Both the position numbers and the translations under genes were made by a program. From the IMG/VR virus record IMGVR_UViG_3300048694_000814, positions 1 through 21,014 of that record: a DNA stretch of 21,014 nt; one strand, given 5' to 3'. This stretch comes from a virus. Position 1 is the first letter of the stretch, and every line of letters starts with the position of its first letter. Of this stretch, positions 2,920 to 21,014 are shown in pieces. The notes under the pieces are model-generated. The model ran no database searches. It saw only the letters and a list, made by a program, of their open reading frames with translations, and was not told where the DNA came from.

Positions 2920-3143
2920 GTGACAGTCTTATTGGTGATATTAGAGCAGTAAACTTTTGGAACTGGTTTGAACCAGAATGGGATGGTGTTACTCTACCAA
3001 GACCAAAGAAAGAACTAGTAGTAACTCACTATGAATTGCAGGTTCGTCGTGTTGTTGTATCTCCAGAAGGTTTGCCAACGCTGACTGATTGGCAATCAAT
3101 CCAAACATATGATCATTATCCAGAAGGAACAAAAGCAGAATGA
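2916..3143 (+). CDS. Small hypothetical phage protein
   Basis: A 75-residue product that I do not recognise. The frame is open from ATG 2895, but ATG 2916 is preferred: it overlaps the upstream stop (ATGA) and follows an SD-like AAAAAGG just upstream. The protein has aromatic-rich beginnings (NFWNWFEPEWDG) followed by alternating hydrophobic and charged residues (VVTHYELQVRRVVV, then LTDWQSIQTYDHYP) that suggest a small beta-sheet domain. It has no signal peptide, membrane segment or cysteines. It lies in a translationally coupled trio (2638, 2916, 3140) between the replication genes and the structured RNA. Such small genes in T4-like phages often act early against the host, but nothing here shows that. 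Confidence 0.7.
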   Translation: MSDSLIGDIRAVNFWNWFEPEWDGVTLPRPKKELVVTHYELQVRRVVVSPEGLPTLTDWQSIQTYDHYPEGTKAE

Positions 3144-3349
3144 ATTATAAGTTGATTACTAATCCAGGTCATTGGTTTGATGTTGTCGAAACACAAACAG
3201 ATCAGATAGTTGGTACGTTTACTGTTTATGATGAGGCGAAGAAGTTCCTTCGTCATCTTAATCTTGGTGGTGGCTTTGATGGTAGGACACCAACTTTTTT
3301 TATGAAAAAAATTAATTTTCTTGCTAAAAAAAGTAGTAATGCTGTATAA
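3140..3349 (+). CDS. Small hypothetical phage protein ending in GGGFDG motif
   Basis: A 69-residue product whose ATG overlaps the preceding stop (ATGA). The body has a small domain shape: a strand-rich start (MNYKLITNPGHWFDVV), TDQIVGTFTVYDEAKKFLRHL, then GGGFDGRTPTFF. I recall similar 'AxxxxxxLxxGGGFDGxTPxFF' endings in small proteins of T4-like marine phages, where they are unassigned. The tail after TPTFF is Lys-rich and comes from a T7-ATG-A7 tract at 3295-3311, so it may be a variable extension. The TATAAATA late promoter (3345-3352) overlaps its stop codon, so this gene ends the upstream transcription unit. Confidence 0.72.
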   Translation: MNYKLITNPGHWFDVVETQTDQIVGTFTVYDEAKKFLRHLNLGGGFDGRTPTFFMKKINFLAKKSSNAV

Positions 3350-3352
3350 ATA
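3345..3352 (+). promoter_or_regulatory. T4-type late promoter TATAAATA driving a structured RNA
   Basis: An exact match to the T4 late promoter (TATAAATA, normally at about -13 to -6, read by gp55 with gp33 and gp45). It overlaps the stop of the small gene ending at 3349. Counting from this position, transcription should start near 3358, two bases before the closing helix of the predicted RNA. Confidence 0.75.
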
Positions 3353-3357
3353 ATATC

Positions 3358-3517
3358 AGAAATGAATGTGTGTTACGTCTGCAGCGTAAAGAGGCTCGTA
3401 GCTATAAGGAATGACTTATACGTAAAGGAACAGTCGGGAATATTCAGTGGGGTTCTGCCCGACCGCATTCATTTAGGGAGTACAGGAGACGGTCGTAATG
3501 GACTGTCTCCTTTTTTT
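3358..3517 (+). ncRNA. Predicted structured phage small RNA (four-way junction plus terminator hairpin)
   Basis: This stretch has no convincing gene but folds well by eye. P1 is an 11-bp closing helix, 3360-3370 with 3464-3474 (one G-U). Inside it are P2, 3373-3377 with 3385-3389 (5 bp, 7-nt loop); P3, 3403-3408 with 3415-3420 (6 bp, loop GAATGA); and P4, 3433-3438 with 3458-3463 (6 bp GTCGGG/CCCGAC, with a possible inner 3-bp helix CAG/CTG). P4 abuts P1 with no spacer, as the T arm abuts the acceptor stem in tRNA, but the linkers are too long and no CCA end or T-loop is present, so it is not a tRNA. A 9-nt linker leads to the intrinsic terminator. The promoter's predicted +1 and the terminator give a discrete transcript of about 160 nt. 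I do not recognise an RNA family. It could instead be a 5' leader that controls the 3547 gene by attenuation. Confidence 0.65.
3484..3517 (+). terminator. Strong rho-independent terminator
   Basis: An 11-bp stem with one G-U pair, 3484-3494 (AGGAGACGGTC) with 3501-3511 (GACTGTCTCCT), a 6-nt loop GTAATG, and a T run at 3511-3517. It ends the predicted small RNA and separates it from the 3547 gene. Confidence 0.88.
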
Positions 3518-3520
3518 ATG

Positions 3521-3528
3521 CCTAAATA
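3521..3528 (+). promoter_or_regulatory. Possible weak late promoter CCTAAATA
   Basis: CCTAAATA differs from TATAAATA at the first two positions but keeps the TAAATA core. It lies just after the terminator and about 18 bp ahead of the 3547 gene, where a new promoter would be needed. Its predicted +1 (about 3534) would leave the SD-like AAAAAGG (3535-3541) in the transcript. Supported by position and core match only. Confidence 0.35.
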
Positions 3529-3546
3529 ATAAGAAAAAGGTATACA

Positions 3547-4812
3547 ATGGCTGCACCATCTTCAATTAAAAGCTTACAAGAATCAATTAAGAAAGCTGGA
3601 TTGGGCGAATCGAAACAAGATTCCTCAACAAGAATTATAGTATACACATCAGAAAAGGATCGTGTTACAGTTCTCAAAACAATTGCTTCTGCTTTTGGTG
3701 GTATGTATTCTTCAACGAAGTATGGTCCTGGATGGAAAAGCTCTCAGGGTTCAGCAAAGATTGGTCTATTTACTGTTCTTGTTAAACCAGCGGCAAAAGC
3801 TGGCACGACTGGTAGCGTATCTAATTTAGATGCTCGCGTATTTACTGGTGATGGTAAGAAAGGTAAGTTTTCTTACGCTGGCCAAGATATCGATGTTGTT
3901 ACATTTACAAGCGCAAAACAAATCGAAAAGAGTATGGTCGAAGGCGCAAAGAAAAGTCAAATTTTAGGATCAGAAATTGCCGAACAGTTTGATGATTTTT
4001 TTACAGCTAAGAAGTTTACATGGGATCCAAATTTAAGTCCAATAATGTTAAACAAGCTTGGTGTTTATGCTGGTGAAGTTTTGATTGGATGGGCTGCATT
4101 TCAAAAAGATAAAACAAAATATATGGAAGCTTCGCCATTCAAAGGCACAGTTAGTAAGTTTCATTTACCTACTGACCCAGCATTTACTGGTGTTGATAGT
4201 TTCGTTGAAATGTCAGATGGTTCTTTTTATGCTGTTAGTTCTAAGTTTGGTGTTGGTGCTAAAGCGAGCTTCTTCACTAACATGCTAGAAAAAGGTATCA
4301 AGAAAAAATCTAAGCTAAAAAATAGCGTATTTAAAGACATATGTGATATTTGTGAGCAGAATAATTTAGAATATAAAAAGTCTCGCGATATTGTTTACAC
4401 GTATGGTCTTAAGAAAATACTTAAATTGAATTTAACTTCAGCAATATATAATGAAATTATTTCTGATAAAAAAACAGTCAATGTTATAAAGCTTAATACA
4501 GCCATAAGTAAATATCCAGGTGTGTCGCCAGATATTGTTAAGAAGCTACCTCGTAGTGCTAGTGCGTTTTTTAACAGAACAATTGCTGAACAACTCAATA
4601 AAGATCAAGCAAGTATGGATCAAATTGTTGAGATTTTACAAGGCAAAGATTATTGGCAAGCAAACTTGAACATTGCTGAATGGATAAAAGGTAATGTTAA
4701 ATTTAAATTTGTTAAGGCTGCTAAAGCCAAAGTAAAATTTATTGGTTCGAAATCTGCTATTGATGATGTTACAAGCAAACAAGGTTGGATTAATTACGAA
4801 CTGTCTCAGTAA
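3547..4812 (+). CDS. Putative internal or head-block protein; possible PD-(D/E)XK nuclease-like fold
   Basis: A 421-residue protein without a sure family. ATG 3547 follows AAAAAGG by five bases. Residues 1-30 are a short helix-rich leader with two L-x-E sites (LQE 10-12, LGE 19-21), the type cut by T4 prohead protease. Residues 30-125 form a mixed alpha/beta region (TRIIVYTSEKDRVTVLKTIA, then IGLFTVLVKP). The region 170-245 (LGVYAGEVLIGWAAF, then GVDSFVEMSDGSFYAVSSKFG) resembles a restriction-endonuclease core: E177 in a helix, D217 on a strand, and S231-S-K233 in place of the usual (D/E)-x-K. The missing acid would make catalysis doubtful unless E177 or E221 substitutes. The C-terminal half is helical and Lys-rich. 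It opens the head-protein block, just before the ligase/NMNAT gene. Confidence 0.8.
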   Translation: MAAPSSIKSLQESIKKAGLGESKQDSSTRIIVYTSEKDRVTVLKTIASAFGGMYSSTKYGPGWKSSQGSAKIGLFTVLVKPAAKAGTTGSVSNLDARVFTGDGKKGKFSYAGQDIDVVTFTSAKQIEKSMVEGAKKSQILGSEIAEQFDDFFTAKKFTWDPNLSPIMLNKLGVYAGEVLIGWAAFQKDKTKYMEASPFKGTVSKFHLPTDPAFTGVDSFVEMSDGSFYAVSSKFGVGAKASFFTNMLEKGIKKKSKLKNSVFKDICDICEQNNLEYKKSRDIVYTYGLKKILKLNLTSAIYNEIISDKKTVNVIKLNTAISKYPGVSPDIVKKLPRSASAFFNRTIAEQLNKDQASMDQIVEILQGKDYWQANLNIAEWIKGNVKFKFVKAAKAKVKFIGSKSAIDDVTSKQGWINYELSQ

Positions 4813-4831
4813 TAAATTAAAAAGGTTTTAC

Positions 4832-7006
4832 ATGAATTTTAACAACTTCCTTTTAGAATCATTAGATATGGAAAAGCTCAAACATCTTGAGCATGCCGAA
4901 GATCATATTATTCATGGTGGACATGAAGGAGTAAAGCATGCTGCTGATACTCTGAGTGATGTTGTTTCTATTCTTGAGGGTAAGCCAAGAAAGAATTTCA
5001 ATCAACAAACCAGAATAACAACAAAGTATGATGGCGCTCCATCTATTGTATTTGGTGTCAATCCAGAAAATGGTAAGTTCTTTGTTGCTTCTAAATCAGC
5101 ATTCAATAAGAATCCAAAAATCAATTATACTGACAGAGATATCGAAGAAAATCATGGACATGCTCCTGGTCTTGTTGAGAAGCTAAAGGCAGCATTACAA
5201 GAGCTACCAAAGGTCATGCCTAAGAGTGGTGGTGTATTTCAGGGCGACTTGATGTATACCAAAGATGATCTGATCAAAAACAAAGACGGATCATATAGCT
5301 TTACACCAAACACAATCACTTATACAACACAAGATCCTGAACAAACACGTAGTGCTGATGTTGCGAATCTTGGCGTTGTTGTTCACTCAAGATATACTGG
5401 CAAAACATTAGCTGATTCTAAAGTTAGCTTTGATGTTGATCAGAATCAGTTTAGACGCAATCCTGACGTTCATATGATCAATCCAGAAATATCTGGTGCT
5501 AATATTGCGCCTATTGAAAAGAAGAAATATGAGAAAGAACTACAACAGGCATTAGACATCTATAAAGGCATGGACCCAGATATCTTCAATGTTGTTGATG
5601 GACATGATATAACAATGAAAACTTATATCAATTCAACAGTCAGAGATAAAACTGTTCCAAGCGCAAAAGGTTATCTTGCATTTGTCAAGAGCAGAGGTCA
5701 GAAAGAAATCGAGAAAGTCAAGTCGCCCGAAGGTAAAGCAAAGAAAAAAGCTTCAGCCGAAGCTATCGTTTCTCATGTAAAGAATCACTCAGAGCAGTTT
5801 GAAAATATCTTCAGAATGCATAAGGCTATGCAACAGGCAAAAGACACTCTTGTCAATGCATTATCAAATACAGTCAATACTGGTTTCAAAACAACTATTG
5901 GTGGTAAGCCAACCAAGCCTGAAGGTTTCGTTGCTATTCGTGGTGGCAGACCAACAAAGCTAGTTGATCGCGCTGAATTTAGTGCTGCCAATTTCGAAGG
6001 TGGTGCATTCCAAAAGGCAAGTAAAGAAGAACAGGCTGTTGCTGAGAAACCAGAGAATCCTATTGTGACTTCTTTTGGTAGAATGAACCCACCAACTACA
6101 GGTCATGGTGTTTTGGTCAGCAAAGTACAAGAGCTGGCAAAAGAGAAAAAGGCAAAACACGTTATTGCTTTGTCAAGATCGCAGGATCCAGAAAAGAATC
6201 CGTTATCTCCAGAACAAAAACTAAAACATGCTAAACGTATGTTCCCTGGAGCTAACATTGAAGTTGTAGATGAGAAAGCCAAATCAGTAATCGACCATGT
6301 AAAGAAATTGGCAGCTGCTGGTCATGATCATCTAACTATGGTCGTTGGTTCAGATCGTGTAGAAGATATGCAAAAATTGTTGAACCAATACAATGGTAAA
6401 GAATTCAACTTCAAGAAAATTGATGTTGTTTCTGCTGGCGCCAGAGATCCAGATGCTGAAGGACCAGAAGGTATGTCTGCAACAAAAATGCGTGGACATG
6501 CGATACGTGGTAAGTTCAGCGAATTCAAAAAGGGATTACCAGCAAACTTACATCCAGATCATGCCAAAGAAATGTACAATGATGTTCGTCAGGGAATGGA
6601 CATTCAAATTGGACCAGAAACATCTGGCATTTCACTTGCGCGATATGCAAAAAGACAGGATCCAATTGGTCTGAAAGCTCGTAAAGAAATTCAACGTAGA
6701 GAGTTAGTAAAGCAGTCACAGGTTAAACAAAAGCCAAAAAGAATCGCAAGATTAAAAGAAGATATGACGACTACTGGTGATGTTCGTGGTCTTGGATTTG
6801 TTTCTGGTAATCCATTAGTTGATGCTGGGTTCCAAACAACATGGACGACTCTCAATCAGTCTGACGCTGATACTCGCGATCAGATTATGAATCAAACAAA
6901 GAAATCGGTTCACGACGATCTTCATATAAATATAGAACAACGTAGAGACGCCCAGAAACAGAACTTCGTTCAGACGCTGGTAAGATCAATTAGAGATAGG
7001 GCATAA
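4832..7006 (+). CDS. Fusion: ligase-type nucleotidyltransferase + NMNAT-like nucleotidylyltransferase
   Basis: A 724-residue two-enzyme fusion. ATG 4832 has AAAAAGG upstream; the frame extends back to 4742 inside the previous gene, which is unlikely to be used. Residues 1-10 (MNFNNFLLES) look like a capsid-targeting leader with an L-L-E cleavage site. Residues 60-390 fit a DNA/RNA-ligase nucleotidyltransferase: motif I KYDG at 65-68 (K65 the expected AMP-lysine), GGVFQGDLMY at 133-142 (motif III-like), EGFVAIR near 364-370 (motif IV) and KLVDRAEF at 376-383 (motif V). Residues 408-570 fit a cytidylyltransferase-like domain: SFGRMNPPTTGH at 414-425 (HxGH region with the first His replaced by Thr), VVGSDR at 504-509 and SATKMR at 549-554 (ISSTxxR motif). 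These are typical of NMN adenylyltransferases and relatives. The C-terminus (about 640-724) is an unassigned tail. Substrates are unknown; NMN to NAD and RNA-end sealing are the obvious candidates. Confidence 0.85.
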   Translation: MNFNNFLLESLDMEKLKHLEHAEDHIIHGGHEGVKHAADTLSDVVSILEGKPRKNFNQQTRITTKYDGAPSIVFGVNPENGKFFVASKSAFNKNPKINYTDRDIEENHGHAPGLVEKLKAALQELPKVMPKSGGVFQGDLMYTKDDLIKNKDGSYSFTPNTITYTTQDPEQTRSADVANLGVVVHSRYTGKTLADSKVSFDVDQNQFRRNPDVHMINPEISGANIAPIEKKKYEKELQQALDIYKGMDPDIFNVVDGHDITMKTYINSTVRDKTVPSAKGYLAFVKSRGQKEIEKVKSPEGKAKKKASAEAIVSHVKNHSEQFENIFRMHKAMQQAKDTLVNALSNTVNTGFKTTIGGKPTKPEGFVAIRGGRPTKLVDRAEFSAANFEGGAFQKASKEEQAVAEKPENPIVTSFGRMNPPTTGHGVLVSKVQELAKEKKAKHVIALSRSQDPEKNPLSPEQKLKHAKRMFPGANIEVVDEKAKSVIDHVKKLAAAGHDHLTMVVGSDRVEDMQKLLNQYNGKEFNFKKIDVVSAGARDPDAEGPEGMSATKMRGHAIRGKFSEFKKGLPANLHPDHAKEMYNDVRQGMDIQIGPETSGISLARYAKRQDPIGLKARKEIQRRELVKQSQVKQKPKRIARLKEDMTTTGDVRGLGFVSGNPLVDAGFQTTWTTLNQSDADTRDQIMNQTKKSVHDDLHINIEQRRDAQKQNFVQTLVRSIRDRA
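6925..6932 (+). promoter_or_regulatory. Late promoter TATAAATA inside the end of the ligase/NMNAT gene
   Basis: An exact TATAAATA lying in the last 85 bp of the preceding gene, with a predicted start near 6938 and 71 nt ahead of the 7009 gene. Its position just before an abundant-type structural gene makes it a likely late promoter, although one exact 8-mer in AT-rich coding DNA could arise by chance. Confidence 0.6.
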
Positions 7007-10274: not shown

Positions 10275-10561
10275 TGGGAAGTAATATGATTGAAAATTTG
10301 TTTGGACTCGCTGTTTTTGCTGGTATCGTCTATGTGATTTATAGATTGTTATTTGCAAAGAATGATGTTGAGAAAGCTGTTGAAGTAAAGGACGTTTCTG
10401 CTCCTGTTGCTGCGCCTGTGGCTCCTAAAGTTGAGGAACCAAAAAAGCCAGCAGCAAAGAAAGCAGCTCCAAAAGCTAAACCAGCTGCAGAAAAGAAATC
10501 AAAAGAAACACCAGCAAAACCTGCTGCAAAAAAGACAACAAGGGTAAAGAAGAATGGATAA
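10274..10561 (+). CDS. Single-pass membrane protein with histone-H1-like Lys/Ala/Pro tail
   Basis: A 95-residue product whose ATG overlaps the previous stop (TAATG). Residues 8-27 (NLFGLAVFAGIVYVIYRLLF) form one membrane helix with a short N-terminal end. From about residue 40 the protein is almost only Ala, Lys, Pro and Val (PAAKKAAPKAKPAAEKKSKE and similar), like the tails of bacterial histone-H1-like and AlgP-type proteins or the periplasm-spanning linkers of TonB-type proteins. It could tether DNA to the membrane or span the periplasm, for example in lysis. Nothing in the sequence decides between these. Its stop lies inside the start of the Dps gene (8-bp overlap). Confidence 0.78.
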   Translation: MGSNMIENLFGLAVFAGIVYVIYRLLFAKNDVEKAVEVKDVSAPVAAPVAPKVEEPKKPAAKKAAPKAKPAAEKKSKETPAKPAAKKTTRVKKNG

Positions 10562-10991
10562 ATTAATTGAGCAAATGAAGGTAGCGTTAGCTTCTACCTT
10601 TGCTTTCTATTTGAAGGCTCATAACTTTCATTGGAATGTGGAAGGTGCAAACTTTCCACAGTACCACAGCTTTTTCGAAGGCATTTATACTGATGCATGG
10701 GGAGCTGTAGATGGAATTGCTGAGCATCTTCGTACATTGGGTGCATATGCTCCAGGTTCATTTGCTCGATATTTAGATCTTTCTATTGTAAAAGATGAAG
10801 TTAATATTCCTACAGCCATGTCTATGGTTACAAAGTTGCTTGCTGATAATGAAGCTATTATTGAGCAACTAACAGAAACTCAGGCGCTTGCAGAATCAAA
10901 TAAAAAAATGGGTTTAGCAAATTATCTTCAAGATCGCATCGATGCTCATGAAAAAAATGGCTGGATGCTGAGATCAATTTTAAAGGTATAA
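10554..10991 (+). CDS. dps: Dps-like ferritin family protein
   Basis: Dps proteins form 12-subunit shells that oxidise Fe(II) with H2O2 and often bind DNA, so protecting it. This 145-residue product has the full family signature: HNFHWNVEG at 23-31, FPQYHSFFEGIY at 34-45, DGIAEHLRTLG at 53-63 and DRIDAHEKNGWMLRSIL at 127-143. The inter-subunit ferroxidase ligands are all present with canonical spacing: H26, H38, D53, E57. The N-terminus is short, with only a few Lys, so DNA binding through an N-tail is not obvious. The C-terminus ends soon after the last helix. It overlaps the gene for the Lys-rich membrane protein by 8 bp, and the two may be translationally coupled. Confidence 0.93.
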   Translation: MDKLIEQMKVALASTFAFYLKAHNFHWNVEGANFPQYHSFFEGIYTDAWGAVDGIAEHLRTLGAYAPGSFARYLDLSIVKDEVNIPTAMSMVTKLLADNEAIIEQLTETQALAESNKKMGLANYLQDRIDAHEKNGWMLRSILKV

Positions 10992-14731: not shown

Positions 14732-15850
14732 ATGTCAAATGACGCTGTAAAAACGTCGCAGCTAGGAATAACGACTACTCTGGCTAACAATGACAGAGTA
14801 GTTGTCTTAACAAATCCTAACACCGCAGCACAAACACAAACAATCGCTGTTTCTACTCTAGCAAGAACATTGGCATCTAATATCATGCCTATTGCTAATA
14901 GTACACAGCTAGGCGTCATTAAAATTGGTGCGGGGTTGTCTGTTGCCGCGAATGGCGTTGTTACAGCTCCAATACCAGTTGCTAATGCCTCTATAGCAGG
15001 TGTTGTTAAAATTGGTTCTGGTTTGACAGTTGATCAGGATGGCGCTCTCAATGTAACAGGTGGTAACGGCAGTACAGCTAATTATATATTTTATGATGAT
15101 ACGATGTCACTCAGTACTAGTGGTGACATGCATATTAAGAATCCAAATAATGGTATTTTCGTTGATGGTTCTTGGATCACACAATTATCCGCTAGCGCGA
15201 ATGCAGCTGAAAATAGTAATTCAGCTTCTTACGTGTGGGCTTATCAAGAACCAAGTAACGAATCTTACATTGGTTACGCTGAATCAGGCGTTTATGTTCA
15301 AAGTTTAGAAACTGTTGGTAATGATAACATTCAATGGGCTCAATACGTCCTTAATCCAAACAATGTAATGCGTTTTTGGGGAAGTAATAGTTCTGGCGCC
15401 ACGCCTCTCACAATTGCAGTAAATGATGATAATTATTTTAAATTTGGTGTAACAACAGACCAATACAATCCAGCTGATACCATTTCATCGCCAAATCCAT
15501 TAATGTTTAGAAGCAATAATTGGGTTACTTCTGTATATAATGATGCTAATAATGGATTTGCAGAAGTTTGGTGGCATAATCCTGATGCACCTGCAAATAA
15601 TCAACCCCGAGATTCTGACTTTTATGTTGATTCGGATGGTGCATGGATTGTAAACGGTAGATATAACGAAATTGGAAATTACATTAATAACAGCTGGCAC
15701 TTTGGTATGGATGGTATGCTTGATCTTCCAACAGGTGTCGGTGACATTAGAAGAGATGGAGTATCAGTGCTTGGTACAGGACAAATAGATGGTGGTAATG
15801 CATTTACTACACCAACAGCAGAGATAACCGTAGACGGAGGCGGTGCTTAA
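14732..15850 (+). CDS. Putative fibre-type structural protein with LGVIKIGxGL repeats
   Basis: A 372-residue protein beginning MSNDAVKTSQLGITTTLANNDRVVVL, the typical opening of a fibre attachment domain. Residues 55-79 (STQLGVIKIGAGLSVAANGV) and 83-107 (ANASIAGVVKIGSGLTVDQD) are two copies of a short repeat known from tail fibres and short tail fibres ('xxGVVKIGxGLxVxxDGxLxV'). The remainder is aromatic, Asn/Gly/Ser-rich and probably trimeric beta structure, with DSDFYVDSDGAWIVNGRYNE close to the end. The ATG at 14732 has no clear SD, so it may depend on translation from upstream. Position among surface proteins agrees with a receptor-contacting or head-fibre role. Confidence 0.8.
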   Translation: MSNDAVKTSQLGITTTLANNDRVVVLTNPNTAAQTQTIAVSTLARTLASNIMPIANSTQLGVIKIGAGLSVAANGVVTAPIPVANASIAGVVKIGSGLTVDQDGALNVTGGNGSTANYIFYDDTMSLSTSGDMHIKNPNNGIFVDGSWITQLSASANAAENSNSASYVWAYQEPSNESYIGYAESGVYVQSLETVGNDNIQWAQYVLNPNNVMRFWGSNSSGATPLTIAVNDDNYFKFGVTTDQYNPADTISSPNPLMFRSNNWVTSVYNDANNGFAEVWWHNPDAPANNQPRDSDFYVDSDGAWIVNGRYNEIGNYINNSWHFGMDGMLDLPTGVGDIRRDGVSVLGTGQIDGGNAFTTPTAEITVDGGGA

Positions 15851-15851
15851 T

Positions 15852-17105
15852 ATGACACAGATTAAATTACGCAGAGATACAGCCGCTAATTGGGCTACCG
15901 CAAATTCAGTTCTTGCTCAGGGTGAACCTGCAATTGATACAACTAATTTAGGTATTAAAGTTGGCGACGGCACAACTGCTTGGTCAAATCTTAAATTCTT
16001 AACTGGTGGCCAACCATCCCCATCTATTACTTTTGTTGGCACACCTTTAGGTTTACCTACATTATGGAAATATACCCCAAGCGCACCAGTTTTACAATAC
16101 TCATCAAATAATTCTTTTTTAACCGAAGGAAGTGGTTATTATTGGTTAGATCAAAGATTTGATAATGGCGATGCCGACTATAGTGGTGTTTCAGAAGCTC
16201 ATTTAAATAACATCGGTGGTTTAACTGATTACTTTCAATGGTATAAAAAATACGAAGATTCGCTTACAACAATTGATCTTGGTAATATATCTTACATTTC
16301 TAATTGGTTTAATATTGGTAATTTTTCAAACACTCTTACTACATTTACAGCAAATAGTTTAGTAGAAGTTGTAAATAATTTTGAAATCAACAATATGCAC
16401 ACTGATAATGGTGTTCAGTTTGTATTTCCTGCTTTACAAAAAACTAATAGCTTTTATATTGATAATAACTGGAATATGGCGAATACTATATCACCATCTT
16501 TTCCATCATTAAACAAAGTATACAGTGTTTATATATACTACAATCAGTATAGTTCTTGGTCAAATTTTTCTAATCTACAATCAATATCTTGGGAAATCCA
16601 ATTTCACAACAATTCAAACCCAGAAGCAGCTGATTGGGCATGTCCTGGATTTCCTGCTATTGTTACTGTTCCAGGTTATGTAGAAATTTACAGTAATGAT
16701 TATATGACTTCTATTCCAGCATTCTCATCATTGACTACTGTAGGTAATAGTATAGATATTTTTGAAAACCATAGTTTGCTTTTATATCCAGCATTTCCTC
16801 TTCTCCAACATGTTGGGAGTATCAGTGGCTATAATAACTACAGCGTTACTGGATTTGATGGTGGTTTCTTTCCTTCACTCAAGACAGTAAACGGTAATGT
16901 TAATTTCTCTACTTGTTCTCTAACAGAATCGGCAGTTGACGAACTACTAGCAAAACTTGTTTCACTTGATGGAACAAATGGCACAGCAAACTTTACAGGC
17001 GCTGTATATGTCAATGGTAGCGGCAATGCTATACCTTCAGCACAAGGTATGACAGATATAGCCACACTACAAGGTCGTGGTTGCTACGTAGAATATAACT
17101 CATAA
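15852..17105 (+). CDS. Fibre/adhesin with Mtd-like N-terminus and leucine-rich-repeat-like body
   Basis: A 417-residue protein. ATG 15852 is preferred over GTG 15843 because GGAGG (15836-15840) is well spaced and it starts one base after the previous stop. Residues 4-49 (IKLRRDTAANWATANSVLAQ, GEPAIDT, IKVGDGTTAWSNL) fit the N-terminal domain of major-tropism-determinant or fibre proteins. From about residue 130 to 360 are irregular repeats of the form 'FPxLxxVxxxxxxxN' (FPALQKTNSFYIDNN, FPSLNKVYSVYIYYN, FSSLTTVGNSIDIFEN, FPLLQHVGSISGYNN, FPSLKTVNGNVNFSTC), a curved leucine-rich or receptor-L-like solenoid. The end (SAVDELLAKLVSLDG, GMTDIATLQGRGCYVEYN) resembles the cap of bacterial LRR surface proteins. 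A receptor-binding role is likely. Confidence 0.85.
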   Translation: MTQIKLRRDTAANWATANSVLAQGEPAIDTTNLGIKVGDGTTAWSNLKFLTGGQPSPSITFVGTPLGLPTLWKYTPSAPVLQYSSNNSFLTEGSGYYWLDQRFDNGDADYSGVSEAHLNNIGGLTDYFQWYKKYEDSLTTIDLGNISYISNWFNIGNFSNTLTTFTANSLVEVVNNFEINNMHTDNGVQFVFPALQKTNSFYIDNNWNMANTISPSFPSLNKVYSVYIYYNQYSSWSNFSNLQSISWEIQFHNNSNPEAADWACPGFPAIVTVPGYVEIYSNDYMTSIPAFSSLTTVGNSIDIFENHSLLLYPAFPLLQHVGSISGYNNYSVTGFDGGFFPSLKTVNGNVNFSTCSLTESAVDELLAKLVSLDGTNGTANFTGAVYVNGSGNAIPSAQGMTDIATLQGRGCYVEYNS

Positions 17106-17114
17106 GGATAAAAA

Positions 17115-17816
17115 ATGGCTGACATAATTGTATCAACATCAGGAACTTCTGGATTAGCCAAAGACATTGTCTTAACCCCAGAAATTATGGCAGCTCGAGT
17201 TGCTATAACTGACAAAGCAAACGGTAAAAATATAGCCGACTGTAAAGTATTAATAGTCGCTAAAGCGACAATGTCTTCTTCTTTTCAACGCTATAAAGCA
17301 TGGGCTGATGCAAAAGGTAAGAAAATCATTACCGATGTTACTCTTAACAAAGTTGTTGAAGTAATTAAGAACGAAAAGGTCGATGCTATTATTGCTGGTC
17401 CTGGATACCTTGTAGCTGTTGCAAAAGAGTTTGAAAAGCTTGGTCATTCTGCAAACTTAAAGCAAGCTGTTTCTGGTCACTCTGCTATGCCTCGTCTCAG
17501 CGCATTATACATACAAAAGTGGTTAAGTAAAGACCTACAGGTTGGCTACGGATGTACTGAAATAGGTACAGTATGTTCAGGTACAGCCGAAGAAGTTGCT
17601 GAAGCAGAAGGTTGTGTTGGTAAACCAGTTGATGGTGTAACAGTAGAAATCGTTGACGGTGATGTTATTCGCATTAAGTCGCCTACTACTATGGTTACAA
17701 AATATGAAGATTATGCAGAAATGGACGCAATTTACTTTAAAGATGGTTGGTTCTATCCAGGCGATAAAGGTTATTTCACAAAAAGTGGAAAGTTAGTAAT
17801 TACTGAAACAAGATAA
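17115..17816 (+). CDS. Truncated ANL-superfamily (AMP-binding, acyl-adenylate) domain
   Basis: A 233-residue protein with the adenylate-forming core but much shorter than a normal enzyme (about 500 aa). It starts close to the phosphate-binding loop: IIVSTSGTSGLAKDIVL (motif A3 at 7-16, STSGTSGLAK). Then come GYGCTE at 144-149 (A5), GCVGKPVDG at 166-174 and FYPGDKGYFTKSGKLVITETR at 213-233 (A7 TGD region, here PGD). It stops where the hinge and the mobile C-terminal domain, with the catalytic Lys of A10, should begin. The first ~150 residues of the family are missing too. It could still bind ATP and an acid, or have lost catalysis. The ATG follows the fibre gene by nine bases, with AAGGA upstream. 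No known phage role; a fibre-linked function is only suggested by position. Confidence 0.82.
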   Translation: MADIIVSTSGTSGLAKDIVLTPEIMAARVAITDKANGKNIADCKVLIVAKATMSSSFQRYKAWADAKGKKIITDVTLNKVVEVIKNEKVDAIIAGPGYLVAVAKEFEKLGHSANLKQAVSGHSAMPRLSALYIQKWLSKDLQVGYGCTEIGTVCSGTAEEVAEAEGCVGKPVDGVTVEIVDGDVIRIKSPTTMVTKYEDYAEMDAIYFKDGWFYPGDKGYFTKSGKLVITETR

Positions 17817-18214
17817 TGCATGATAAATTGACTGAAGAGAATTTTTTAATATACTGCGCAAAACACTATGATAATCCTTCCTGTCATTCAACAGAAGAAT
17901 TCTTTGAAGATCTAAATCGTATCAAATATATTAAAAAACTTGTTACAAGATATGTTGAAAATGGTGATTTGAAAGAGAGACTAATTCTCAATCATATCAC
18001 GATTCTTTATAATATTTTTGGACCAGAACATTTATGTCGTATATTATATTTGAAAATGAAACCACAGTTTTGTTATATCAAACCATTTTTGATTTTGTTA
18101 AATATACTACCGAAGACAATACATAATATAAGGGATGAGTCTATAGTTGAGACTGATCTGATACCAATGAATGAAGAGATTATAGATAGGTTAAGGAAAA
18201 TAAGCAATGGATAA
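17816..18214 (+). CDS. Small conserved phage protein, function unknown
   Basis: A 132-residue, mostly helical protein whose ATG overlaps the ANL stop (TAATG). The pattern ENFLIYCAKHYDNPSCHS, EEFFEDLNRIKYIKKLVTRY, LKERLILNHITILYNIFGPE, then a hydrophobic IKPFLILLNIL, is one I recall from a small conserved protein of T4-like cyanophages that has no assigned function. The 'AAKHYxNPxCxxxxEFxEDLxRxKYxKRL' block is the recognisable core. No catalytic or membrane motif is clear; the ILLNIL stretch is too short for a confident transmembrane call. The next gene starts 8 bp inside it, so the three genes from 17816 to 18772 are a coupled cluster. Confidence 0.8.
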   Translation: MHDKLTEENFLIYCAKHYDNPSCHSTEEFFEDLNRIKYIKKLVTRYVENGDLKERLILNHITILYNIFGPEHLCRILYLKMKPQFCYIKPFLILLNILPKTIHNIRDESIVETDLIPMNEEIIDRLRKISNG

Positions 18215-19856: not shown

Positions 19857-20110
19857 TTATGGATAAAATTGAAGACGACCTGTTCTATAACCTGCGTCAT
19901 CTAAAGATCTTTAAATCTTCTACAAACAACAACGATAATGTTTGGGCATATCGCTGGCCAGAAGGTGGAGACATCGAAATGTATGATAAGAAAACAGATG
20001 AAACATTGTTCAAAGTTGGACATGATCCGAGACTGGCAGAATATATCTGTTGTTTACATAACATGTCAAAGAAGCTAATCAAAGAAGTGGAGTCTAAGTA
20101 TGAGCAATGA
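19853..20110 (+). CDS. Small hypothetical phage protein
   Basis: An 85-residue product if translated from ATG 19853, which overlaps the primase stop (ATGA) and has GGAG at 19843-19846. ATG 19841 would add four residues but lacks a comparable SD. The body has alternating charge (MDKIEDDLFYNLRHLKIF), a WAYRWPEGGDIEMYDKKTDE beta-like middle and CCLHNMSKKLIKEVESKYEQ at the end. I do not recognise the family. Its last bases overlap the start of the next gene by 11 bp, so it is coupled with the DLVK-type array. Confidence 0.65.
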   Translation: MIMDKIEDDLFYNLRHLKIFKSSTNNNDNVWAYRWPEGGDIEMYDKKTDETLFKVGHDPRLAEYICCLHNMSKKLIKEVESKYEQ

Positions 20111-20438
20111 TCTTGTGAAGAAACGCAGAATGGATGCTTACTATTATGGTTTTGATGAAACTGGTGTTGATGTGATTGACAAGGTTCTAAGCGCTGTTGC
20201 CTGTGCTGGTAAAGCATATCACCATACGGATGATTGGACTGAAGATTGCTCTGCATATGAGGATCACACTGGCGATAATCCTGTTGCATGGATACAGAAC
20301 GCCTCAAAAGAAGCAGCCGACCGCATTGAGGCGCTGGAGGCGGCGTTGCAGTCTATTGCTGCAAACGCTTGCTGTGACAAATGCCAAGAGGCTGCATTTG
20401 TTGCCTGTGCTGCACTAGAGGAGAAGAAAGATGACTGA
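20100..20438 (+). CDS. DLVK...AADRIE-type small phage protein (copy 1)
   Basis: A 112-residue product, the first of at least three tandem relatives. It begins MSNDLVKKRRM and carries ASKEAADRIEALEAALQSIA, then ACAALEEKKDD at the end. This 'M(S/T)(D/N)DLVKxLR...AADRIExLExxL' pattern is frequent in short proteins of proteobacterial phages (Ea22-like set); the function is unknown. In this copy a unique central insert (ACAGKAYHHTDDWTEDCSAY, GDNPVAWIQNA) separates the two conserved ends. It overlaps the upstream gene by 11 bp and the next by 8. Codon use in its second half is clearly more GC-rich than in most of the window, consistent with a module gained by transfer. Confidence 0.75.
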   Translation: MSNDLVKKRRMDAYYYGFDETGVDVIDKVLSAVACAGKAYHHTDDWTEDCSAYEDHTGDNPVAWIQNASKEAADRIEALEAALQSIAANACCDKCQEAAFVACAALEEKKDD

Positions 20439-20813
20439 CGATCTTGTGAAGCGGCTGCGTTATCTTGGCGATCATGCGTCTTATGAGCCGCACACCTACC
20501 ACACTGCCGCCGACCGCATTGAAAAACTACAATTAGAATTAAAAAAAGAAAATCAAAGGTATCACAGACTTTATGATCGTGCAAGTCAACTGGAAACGGC
20601 GCTGCGGAAAATAGATCAAGCTACAATTTCACACGTTGATGGGCGTGATCTGCTTGATGAACTTCACCCGCGCAACACATTAGACATCAAGCGTAGAATT
20701 GATGGGATTGATACTTGGTTTGAAGGCGATTGGCTATCCAATTTGCGTGATGCCAGAAACGCCGCCCGCGCTGCACTAGGGGAGAAGAAAGATGACTGAC
20801 GATCTTGTGAAGC
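20410..20813 (+). repeat. 43-bp near-identical direct repeat at gene junctions
   Basis: Copies at 20410-20452 and 20771-20813 differ at one position (A against G at the tenth base). Each spans the end of one DLVK-type gene (ALxEKKDD), the ATGACTGA stop/start overlap and the first codons (MTDDLVK) of the next. A weaker echo (GATCTTGTGAAG) is found at the start of the 20100 gene. The arrangement gives homology for deleting, duplicating or shuffling whole gene units. Confidence 0.92.
20431..20799 (+). CDS. DLVK...AADRIE-type small phage protein (copy 2)
   Basis: A 122-residue relative of the 20100 gene: MTDDLVKRLRYLGDHASYEP, HTAADRIEKLQLELKKENQR, a short coiled-coil (YHRLYDRASQLETALRKI), then a unique central part (DGRDLLDELHPRNTLDIKRR, DTWFEGDWLSNLRDA) and the shared end ALGEKKDD. 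Start and stop lie inside the 43-bp repeat and overlap both neighbours by 8 bp (ATGACTGA). A ribosome could pass from gene to gene. Conserved ends with an unrelated middle are the reason to read it as a cassette. No function is known. Confidence 0.75.
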   Translation: MTDDLVKRLRYLGDHASYEPHTYHTAADRIEKLQLELKKENQRYHRLYDRASQLETALRKIDQATISHVDGRDLLDELHPRNTLDIKRRIDGIDTWFEGDWLSNLRDARNAARAALGEKKDD

Positions 20814-21014
20814 AATTACGCCAACAGGCTGATAGCGAATATATTCACGCATTGTTTGAAGAAGCCGCCGACCGCATAGAAAAGTTGGAGAAATCACTTA
20901 TCAATATATGGGGTTGGTATCCAACAAGTGTTTCCAACCCGTATAAAACAATCAATGATATTAAAGACTATGCGTTTAGGACTATTAAAGAATTGGATGA
21001 AGATGCCAAATCTG
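20792..21014 (+). CDS. DLVK...AADRIE-type small phage protein (copy 3, 3' end outside window)
   Basis: A gene starting ATG 20792 inside the 43-bp repeat, open to the window edge (74 codons visible). It reads MTDDLVKQLRQQADSEYIHA, then EEAADRIEKLEKSLINIWGW, and a unique part (YPTSVSNPYKTINDIKDYAF, RTIKELDEDAKS). It lacks the unique middle domain of the other two copies, and its first 30 residues align with copy 2. The array probably goes on beyond 21014. Confidence 0.72.
   Translation, partial: MTDDLVKQLRQQADSEYIHALFEEAADRIEKLEKSLINIWGWYPTSVSNPYKTINDIKDYAFRTIKELDEDAKS

Follow-up and report, generated by a model that had tools for sequence, protein, structure and literature searches.

The window analysed here comprises 21,014 nucleotides (positions 1 to 21,014 of IMG/VR virus record IMGVR_UViG_3300048694_000814) and derives from a T4-like phage, in which UvsX, a DnaB-like helicase, a primase and head structural genes are present. 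Between a tail fibre gene and a DUF7207 gene lies a short gene that encodes the core of an adenylate-forming (ANL) enzyme, referred to here as mini-ANL. The features of the locus are as follows.

14732-15850, plus strand: second fibre gene, with an anchor type that is common in syntenic loci.
15843-17105, plus strand: tail fibre gene (420 aa) directly upstream of mini-ANL, with an Mtd_N-type anchor, an LRR-like tip and PHROG tail fibre matches.
15861-15977, plus strand: Mtd_N anchor domain of this fibre (residues 7-45; PF18454, E 2.3e-15).
16017-17102, plus strand: LRR-like fibre tip domain, common to all complete mini-ANL phages and 31-45% identical to the tips in contigs L128, L029 and L030.
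17104-17108, plus strand: predicted ribosome-binding site of mini-ANL, of sequence AAGGA, overlapping the fibre gene stop.
17115-17816, plus strand: mini-ANL gene (233 aa), the A3-to-hinge core of an adenylate-forming enzyme, with a PF00501 match, a fold match to MenE and 4-chlorobenzoate-CoA ligase (4CBL), and same-length homologues in L029, L030/L031 and L128.
17136-17162, plus strand: A3 P-loop motif TSGTSGLAK (residues 8-16), its lysine kept in 4/4 copies.
17544-17561, plus strand: A5 motif GYGCTE (residues 144-149), with Y, G and E invariant in four copies.
17745-17765, plus strand: A7 motif GWFYPGD (residues 211-217), all seven residues invariant in four copies.
17816-18214, plus strand: DUF7207/phrog_407 gene (PF23837, E 7.2e-36), which marks the slot in T4-like relatives and whose start overlaps the mini-ANL stop.

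The mini-ANL reading frame has an intact ATG start and an intact TAA stop, and the stop codon shares one base with the start of the DUF7207 gene. The GC content by codon position is 0.51/0.40/0.24, and both GC content and codon usage are those of the neighbouring structural genes. The protein matches the Pfam AMP-binding family (PF00501) with an E-value of 4.5e-12 and 45.9 bits, against a cut-off of 29.9 bits, over profile positions 170-359 of 384; partial matches to MenE and acyl-CoA ligase models were also obtained. Elsewhere in the window, three consecutive ORFs (20100-21013) share the start M(S/T)(N/D)DLVK and a stretch A(A)DRIE(K/A)L and look like tandem paralogues, and an ORF at 10554-10991 resembles a Dps/ferritin-like protein in its sequence.

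The predicted structure of residues 1-233 superposes on residues 141-383 of BsMenE and 154-401 of 4CBL (VIA-align; Z about 21.5, rmsd 2.3), and Foldseek matches the model to MenE with an E-value of 1e-16. The likeness to the ANL enzymes MenE, 4CBL and McbA comprises motifs A3-A7 and the fold over about 225 residues, at 16-24% identity. Unlike these enzymes, mini-ANL has neither the first 140-150 residues nor any of the mobile C-terminal domain (A8-A10, including the A10 lysine). Pfam and structure comparison bear out the first-pass annotation, which had described A3, A5 and A7 as kept in 233 residues and the N-terminal third and A8-A10 as absent. The loss goes beyond a mere N-terminal stretch, as it takes out almost the whole of one alpha/beta subdomain out of two; the retained part matches the corresponding part of the ANL N-domain, but the N-domain is incomplete. 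One 4CBL entry in the structure-comparison table is titled 'Mutant D402P'; in the predicted model, mini-ANL ends one residue before the position of D402, which we take to be the hinge residue. In a comparison aimed at re-surfacing, the face exposed by the lost subdomain shows five hydrophobic-to-polar columns in the mini-ANLs, compared with 1-7 in control clades. The question raised at first pass, whether so truncated a domain folds, received a divided answer: with a 70-row alignment, which consisted mostly of full-length ANLs and on which the confidence depended, the fold model reached a pLDDT of 93 and a pTM of 0.88, but prediction without an alignment gave a pLDDT of 41.

The BasE and FadD13 N-domain structures in the PDB also lack the C-terminal domain, and the entry titles indicate that the structure of the BasE N-domain contains a bound acyl-adenylate analogue. 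These N-domains keep the N-terminal subdomain and span about 400 residues, whereas mini-ANL has about 230. In the BFVD, the fold of mini-ANL is matched by ANL-annotated proteins of uncultured Caudovirales, namely A0A6J5L563 (465 aa), A0A6J7WHT9 (359 aa) and A0A6J5L770 (214 aa). The last is short like mini-ANL, but all three, compared without their gene context, are only 17-18% identical to it.

A scan of viral contigs with the single protein returned no matches, and the short forms surfaced only with an ANL-aided alignment. Besides the window, the same short form occurs in three distinct versions in IMG/VR contigs (L029, L030/L031 and L128, the last added by a second search) and as a fragment, L032; their identities to the window protein are 62%, 54%, 64-65% and about 70%, respectively, and L030 and L031 are two contigs with an identical mini-ANL sequence. 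Mini-ANL is therefore a small protein family rather than a lone case, with only four distinct complete copies known. Pairwise identity among the mini-ANLs is 53-65%, and the recurrence of such relatives in other phages goes well beyond chance. All copies share the C-terminal end point, the fragment finishing with VITGRK and a stop, and every copy, again including the fragment, lies upstream of DUF7207. The mini-ANL identities parallel the DUF7207 identities across phages, which indicates that mini-ANL is old in this phage group. L032 (positions 1-565) differs from the other mini-ANL phages in having a small membrane-protein-like ORF between mini-ANL and DUF7207.

The short form was not found in the phage records searched, and no isolate was found to carry mini-ANL; PHROGs gave no significant match for the mini-ANLs, and the literature searched yielded no description of an ANL or acyl-CoA synthetase gene next to a phage fibre. 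Matches from faecal 'phage' sequences were ruled out as short forms, since they are full-length bacterial ANLs.

Substitutions among the mini-ANLs fall mainly at third codon positions, and pairwise dN is 0.27-0.42 against a dS of 1.3-4.8 that is near saturation. Conservation is concentrated in the A3, A5 and A7 residues, 16 of 22 being invariant in four copies versus 88 of 233 overall (p 5e-4). The dN/dS ratio is far below 1, and no full-length parent gene was found in the relatives searched. As judged from the sequences, mini-ANL is a real, selected minimal ANL core.

A further short form, of 224 aa, was found in L037, an unrelated GC-rich phage contig. Like the window protein, it starts at Pfam position 170; it ends with TGRVG and a stop, and lies two genes after a tail fibre gene. 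In the tree a long branch (support 82/81) separates it from the other mini-ANLs. It appears that the A3-to-hinge part of an ANL enzyme has been retained as a separate protein on at least two independent occasions, in both cases next to tail genes of a phage.

The tip domain of the upstream fibre, of about 350 residues, is homologous in all four mini-ANL phages; its LRR or receptor-L character is weak (weak LRR matches in the PDB and Recep_L_domain in L128). Each of the four complete mini-ANL copies directly follows a gene with this tip, so that the occurrence of the short form in phage genomes and its linkage to fibres, both raised by the first-pass annotation, were found. The fibre anchors differ: the window and L128 have Mtd_N, L029 has the anchor that is common locally, and L030 has another. 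Among 24 syntenic DUF7207 loci that lack the tip, none carries mini-ANL (0/24). The slot before DUF7207 varies among relatives. In L125 and L142, which are close relatives of L030 (the DUF7207 proteins of L125 and L030 are 88% identical), the tip and DUF7207 are adjacent with nothing between them, and the C-terminal end of the tip is present without mini-ANL in L133, the L134 group, L143 and L146. An obligate pairing of tip and mini-ANL was rejected, as the tip occurs alone. The earlier description of a minimal ANL next to a fibre gene stands insofar as the gene belongs with the fibre; the link is one-directional, however, as the tip also occurs without mini-ANL. At the level of gene content, mini-ANL accompanies one class of LRR-like fibre tips in T4-like phages as an accessory, because the tip of L125 and L142 does without it; since this is so even in close relatives, mini-ANL is not essential for the tip.

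In the L134 group (L134, positions 3092-5658, and the near-identical L135-L140 and L147), the fibre with the homologous tip end precedes a 76-aa ORF, after which come genes for an FkbM methyltransferase and a glycosyltransferase (Gly_transf_sug). This gene order fits, but does not prove, the presence of modifying enzymes in the post-fibre position.

Among the cellular ANL matches from the genome scan, those that do not run into a contig end have full length (about 440-920 aa), with the exception of L078. This 232-aa cellular ORF aligns only with the C-terminal half and probably represents a fragment. Cellular ANLs and mini-ANLs are 23-44% identical over the matched stretch, and the seven cellular relatives aligned at full length keep A8 and the A10 lysine. 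Many ANL genes of one cellular clade stand beside genes for autotransporters, ShlB with a passenger, OMP beta-barrels, porins, or glycine-rich or beta-helix surface proteins; full-length ANLs adjacent to surface proteins were seen in L044, L046, L050, L054, L070, L090, L104, L106, L117, L121 and L155. In the other clade, catabolic or transport genes predominate among the neighbours. Forcing the mini-ANLs with this other, non-surface-linked clade gave a p-AU of 0.37. Because the placement of the mini-ANLs among the clades is not fixed, the surface-protein context of their cellular cousins is only suggestive, a lead rather than evidence for the mini-ANLs. A wider class search around one cellular genome returned no further genome at E 1e-120. 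In phage contigs L033 (3103-6050), L034 (2980-6050) and L036 (4221-7162), full-length ANL genes (about 490 aa) occur as tandem pairs, and these genes form one clade (100/99).

The interpretation we favour is that mini-ANL is a repurposed ANL core, a putative nucleotide- or acyl-adenylate-binding factor that matures the fibre tip, to which we assign roughly even odds (about 0.5). The retained motifs speak for ligand binding. The protein would be made just after the fibre and would fold as that half of an ANL enzyme which binds the nucleotide and the acid; we infer that it may bind ATP or an acyl-adenylate and may act on the fibre tip during maturation, either through a slow covalent modification or through a ligand-dependent conditioning of the tip, any catalysis being likewise putative. 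Efficient adenylation by mini-ANL alone is unlikely, because the protein has neither the A10 lysine nor A8, and neither a carrier protein nor a C-terminal domain was found in the 157-kb L031 contig.

Ranked next, as a possible but distinctly less probable explanation, is a non-catalytic fibre chaperone or cap, for which the ANL fold would have been co-opted to bind the tip in the manner of the Tfa/gp38-like proteins downstream of fibres, with nucleotide binding as a relic. A fibre followed by its cognate chaperone is a known module, with the T4 gp38/Tfa type and Alteromonas phages A5 and V22 (PMC10579305) as examples. In these Alteromonas modules, a small gene directly follows the host-recognition fibre across phages of different backgrounds (PMC10579305), as it does with mini-ANL, which is tied to one tip class and has lost the C-terminal domain and the catalytic lysine. 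In addition, the fibre of phage A5 can do without its chaperone (PMC10579305), just as the tip in L125 does without mini-ANL. The Alteromonas chaperones have a fold other than ANL; mini-ANL has no significant PHROG match, which is no proof against homology to known chaperone families. Against the chaperone reading, the best conserved residues of mini-ANL are those of A3, A5 and A7, the P-loop lysine and A5 glutamate among them, and a pure chaperone would have no use for these.

More doubtful is the proposal that mini-ANL is an autonomous adenylate-forming or adenylate-using enzyme of ~230 residues, the smallest of the superfamily, that chemically modifies the receptor-binding tip of the phage. 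If true, it would fit a broader pattern in which surface and fibre proteins are served by ANL proteins, a pattern suggested by a number of full-length cellular cousins that adjoin autotransporters, outer-membrane barrels and glycine-rich surface proteins.

It is improbable that mini-ANL has no connection with the fibre and is instead an auxiliary metabolic or host-directed protein, which might, for example, bind an acyl-adenylate or a host ANL enzyme and merely occupy a variable slot. The changing content of the slot before DUF7207 among relatives, the extra gene between mini-ANL and DUF7207 in L032 and the full-length ANL pairs in other phage contigs are consistent with such a role, but the same tip domain precedes 4/4 complete copies although the anchors vary, and the independent L037 form is also beside tail genes. 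The coincidence of the cuts with domain boundaries could point to a split ANL enzyme of which mini-ANL is one half, the remainder being encoded elsewhere in the phage or supplied by the host; this is very unlikely, as on the phage side neither an AMP-binding_C match nor a second AMP-binding piece was found in the 157-kb L031 contig or in three other mini-ANL contigs. Finally, a decaying fragment of a full-length ANL gene would explain why both enzyme ends are missing but is scarcely credible, as the first-pass annotation had also judged: dN lies far under dS, the four divergent copies have intact frames that share their ends, the gene has a good ribosome-binding site and overlaps its successor, and no full-length copy was found in the relatives searched.

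The A3-to-hinge part of an ANL enzyme can thus persist under selection as a protein of its own, and mini-ANL would offer a natural way to test how small an adenylation domain can be and still bind or use acyl-adenylates. Should mini-ANL work on the fibre, as the tip-maturing, ligand-binding reading holds, it would represent an unrecognised route by which phages finish or modify their receptor-binding tips.
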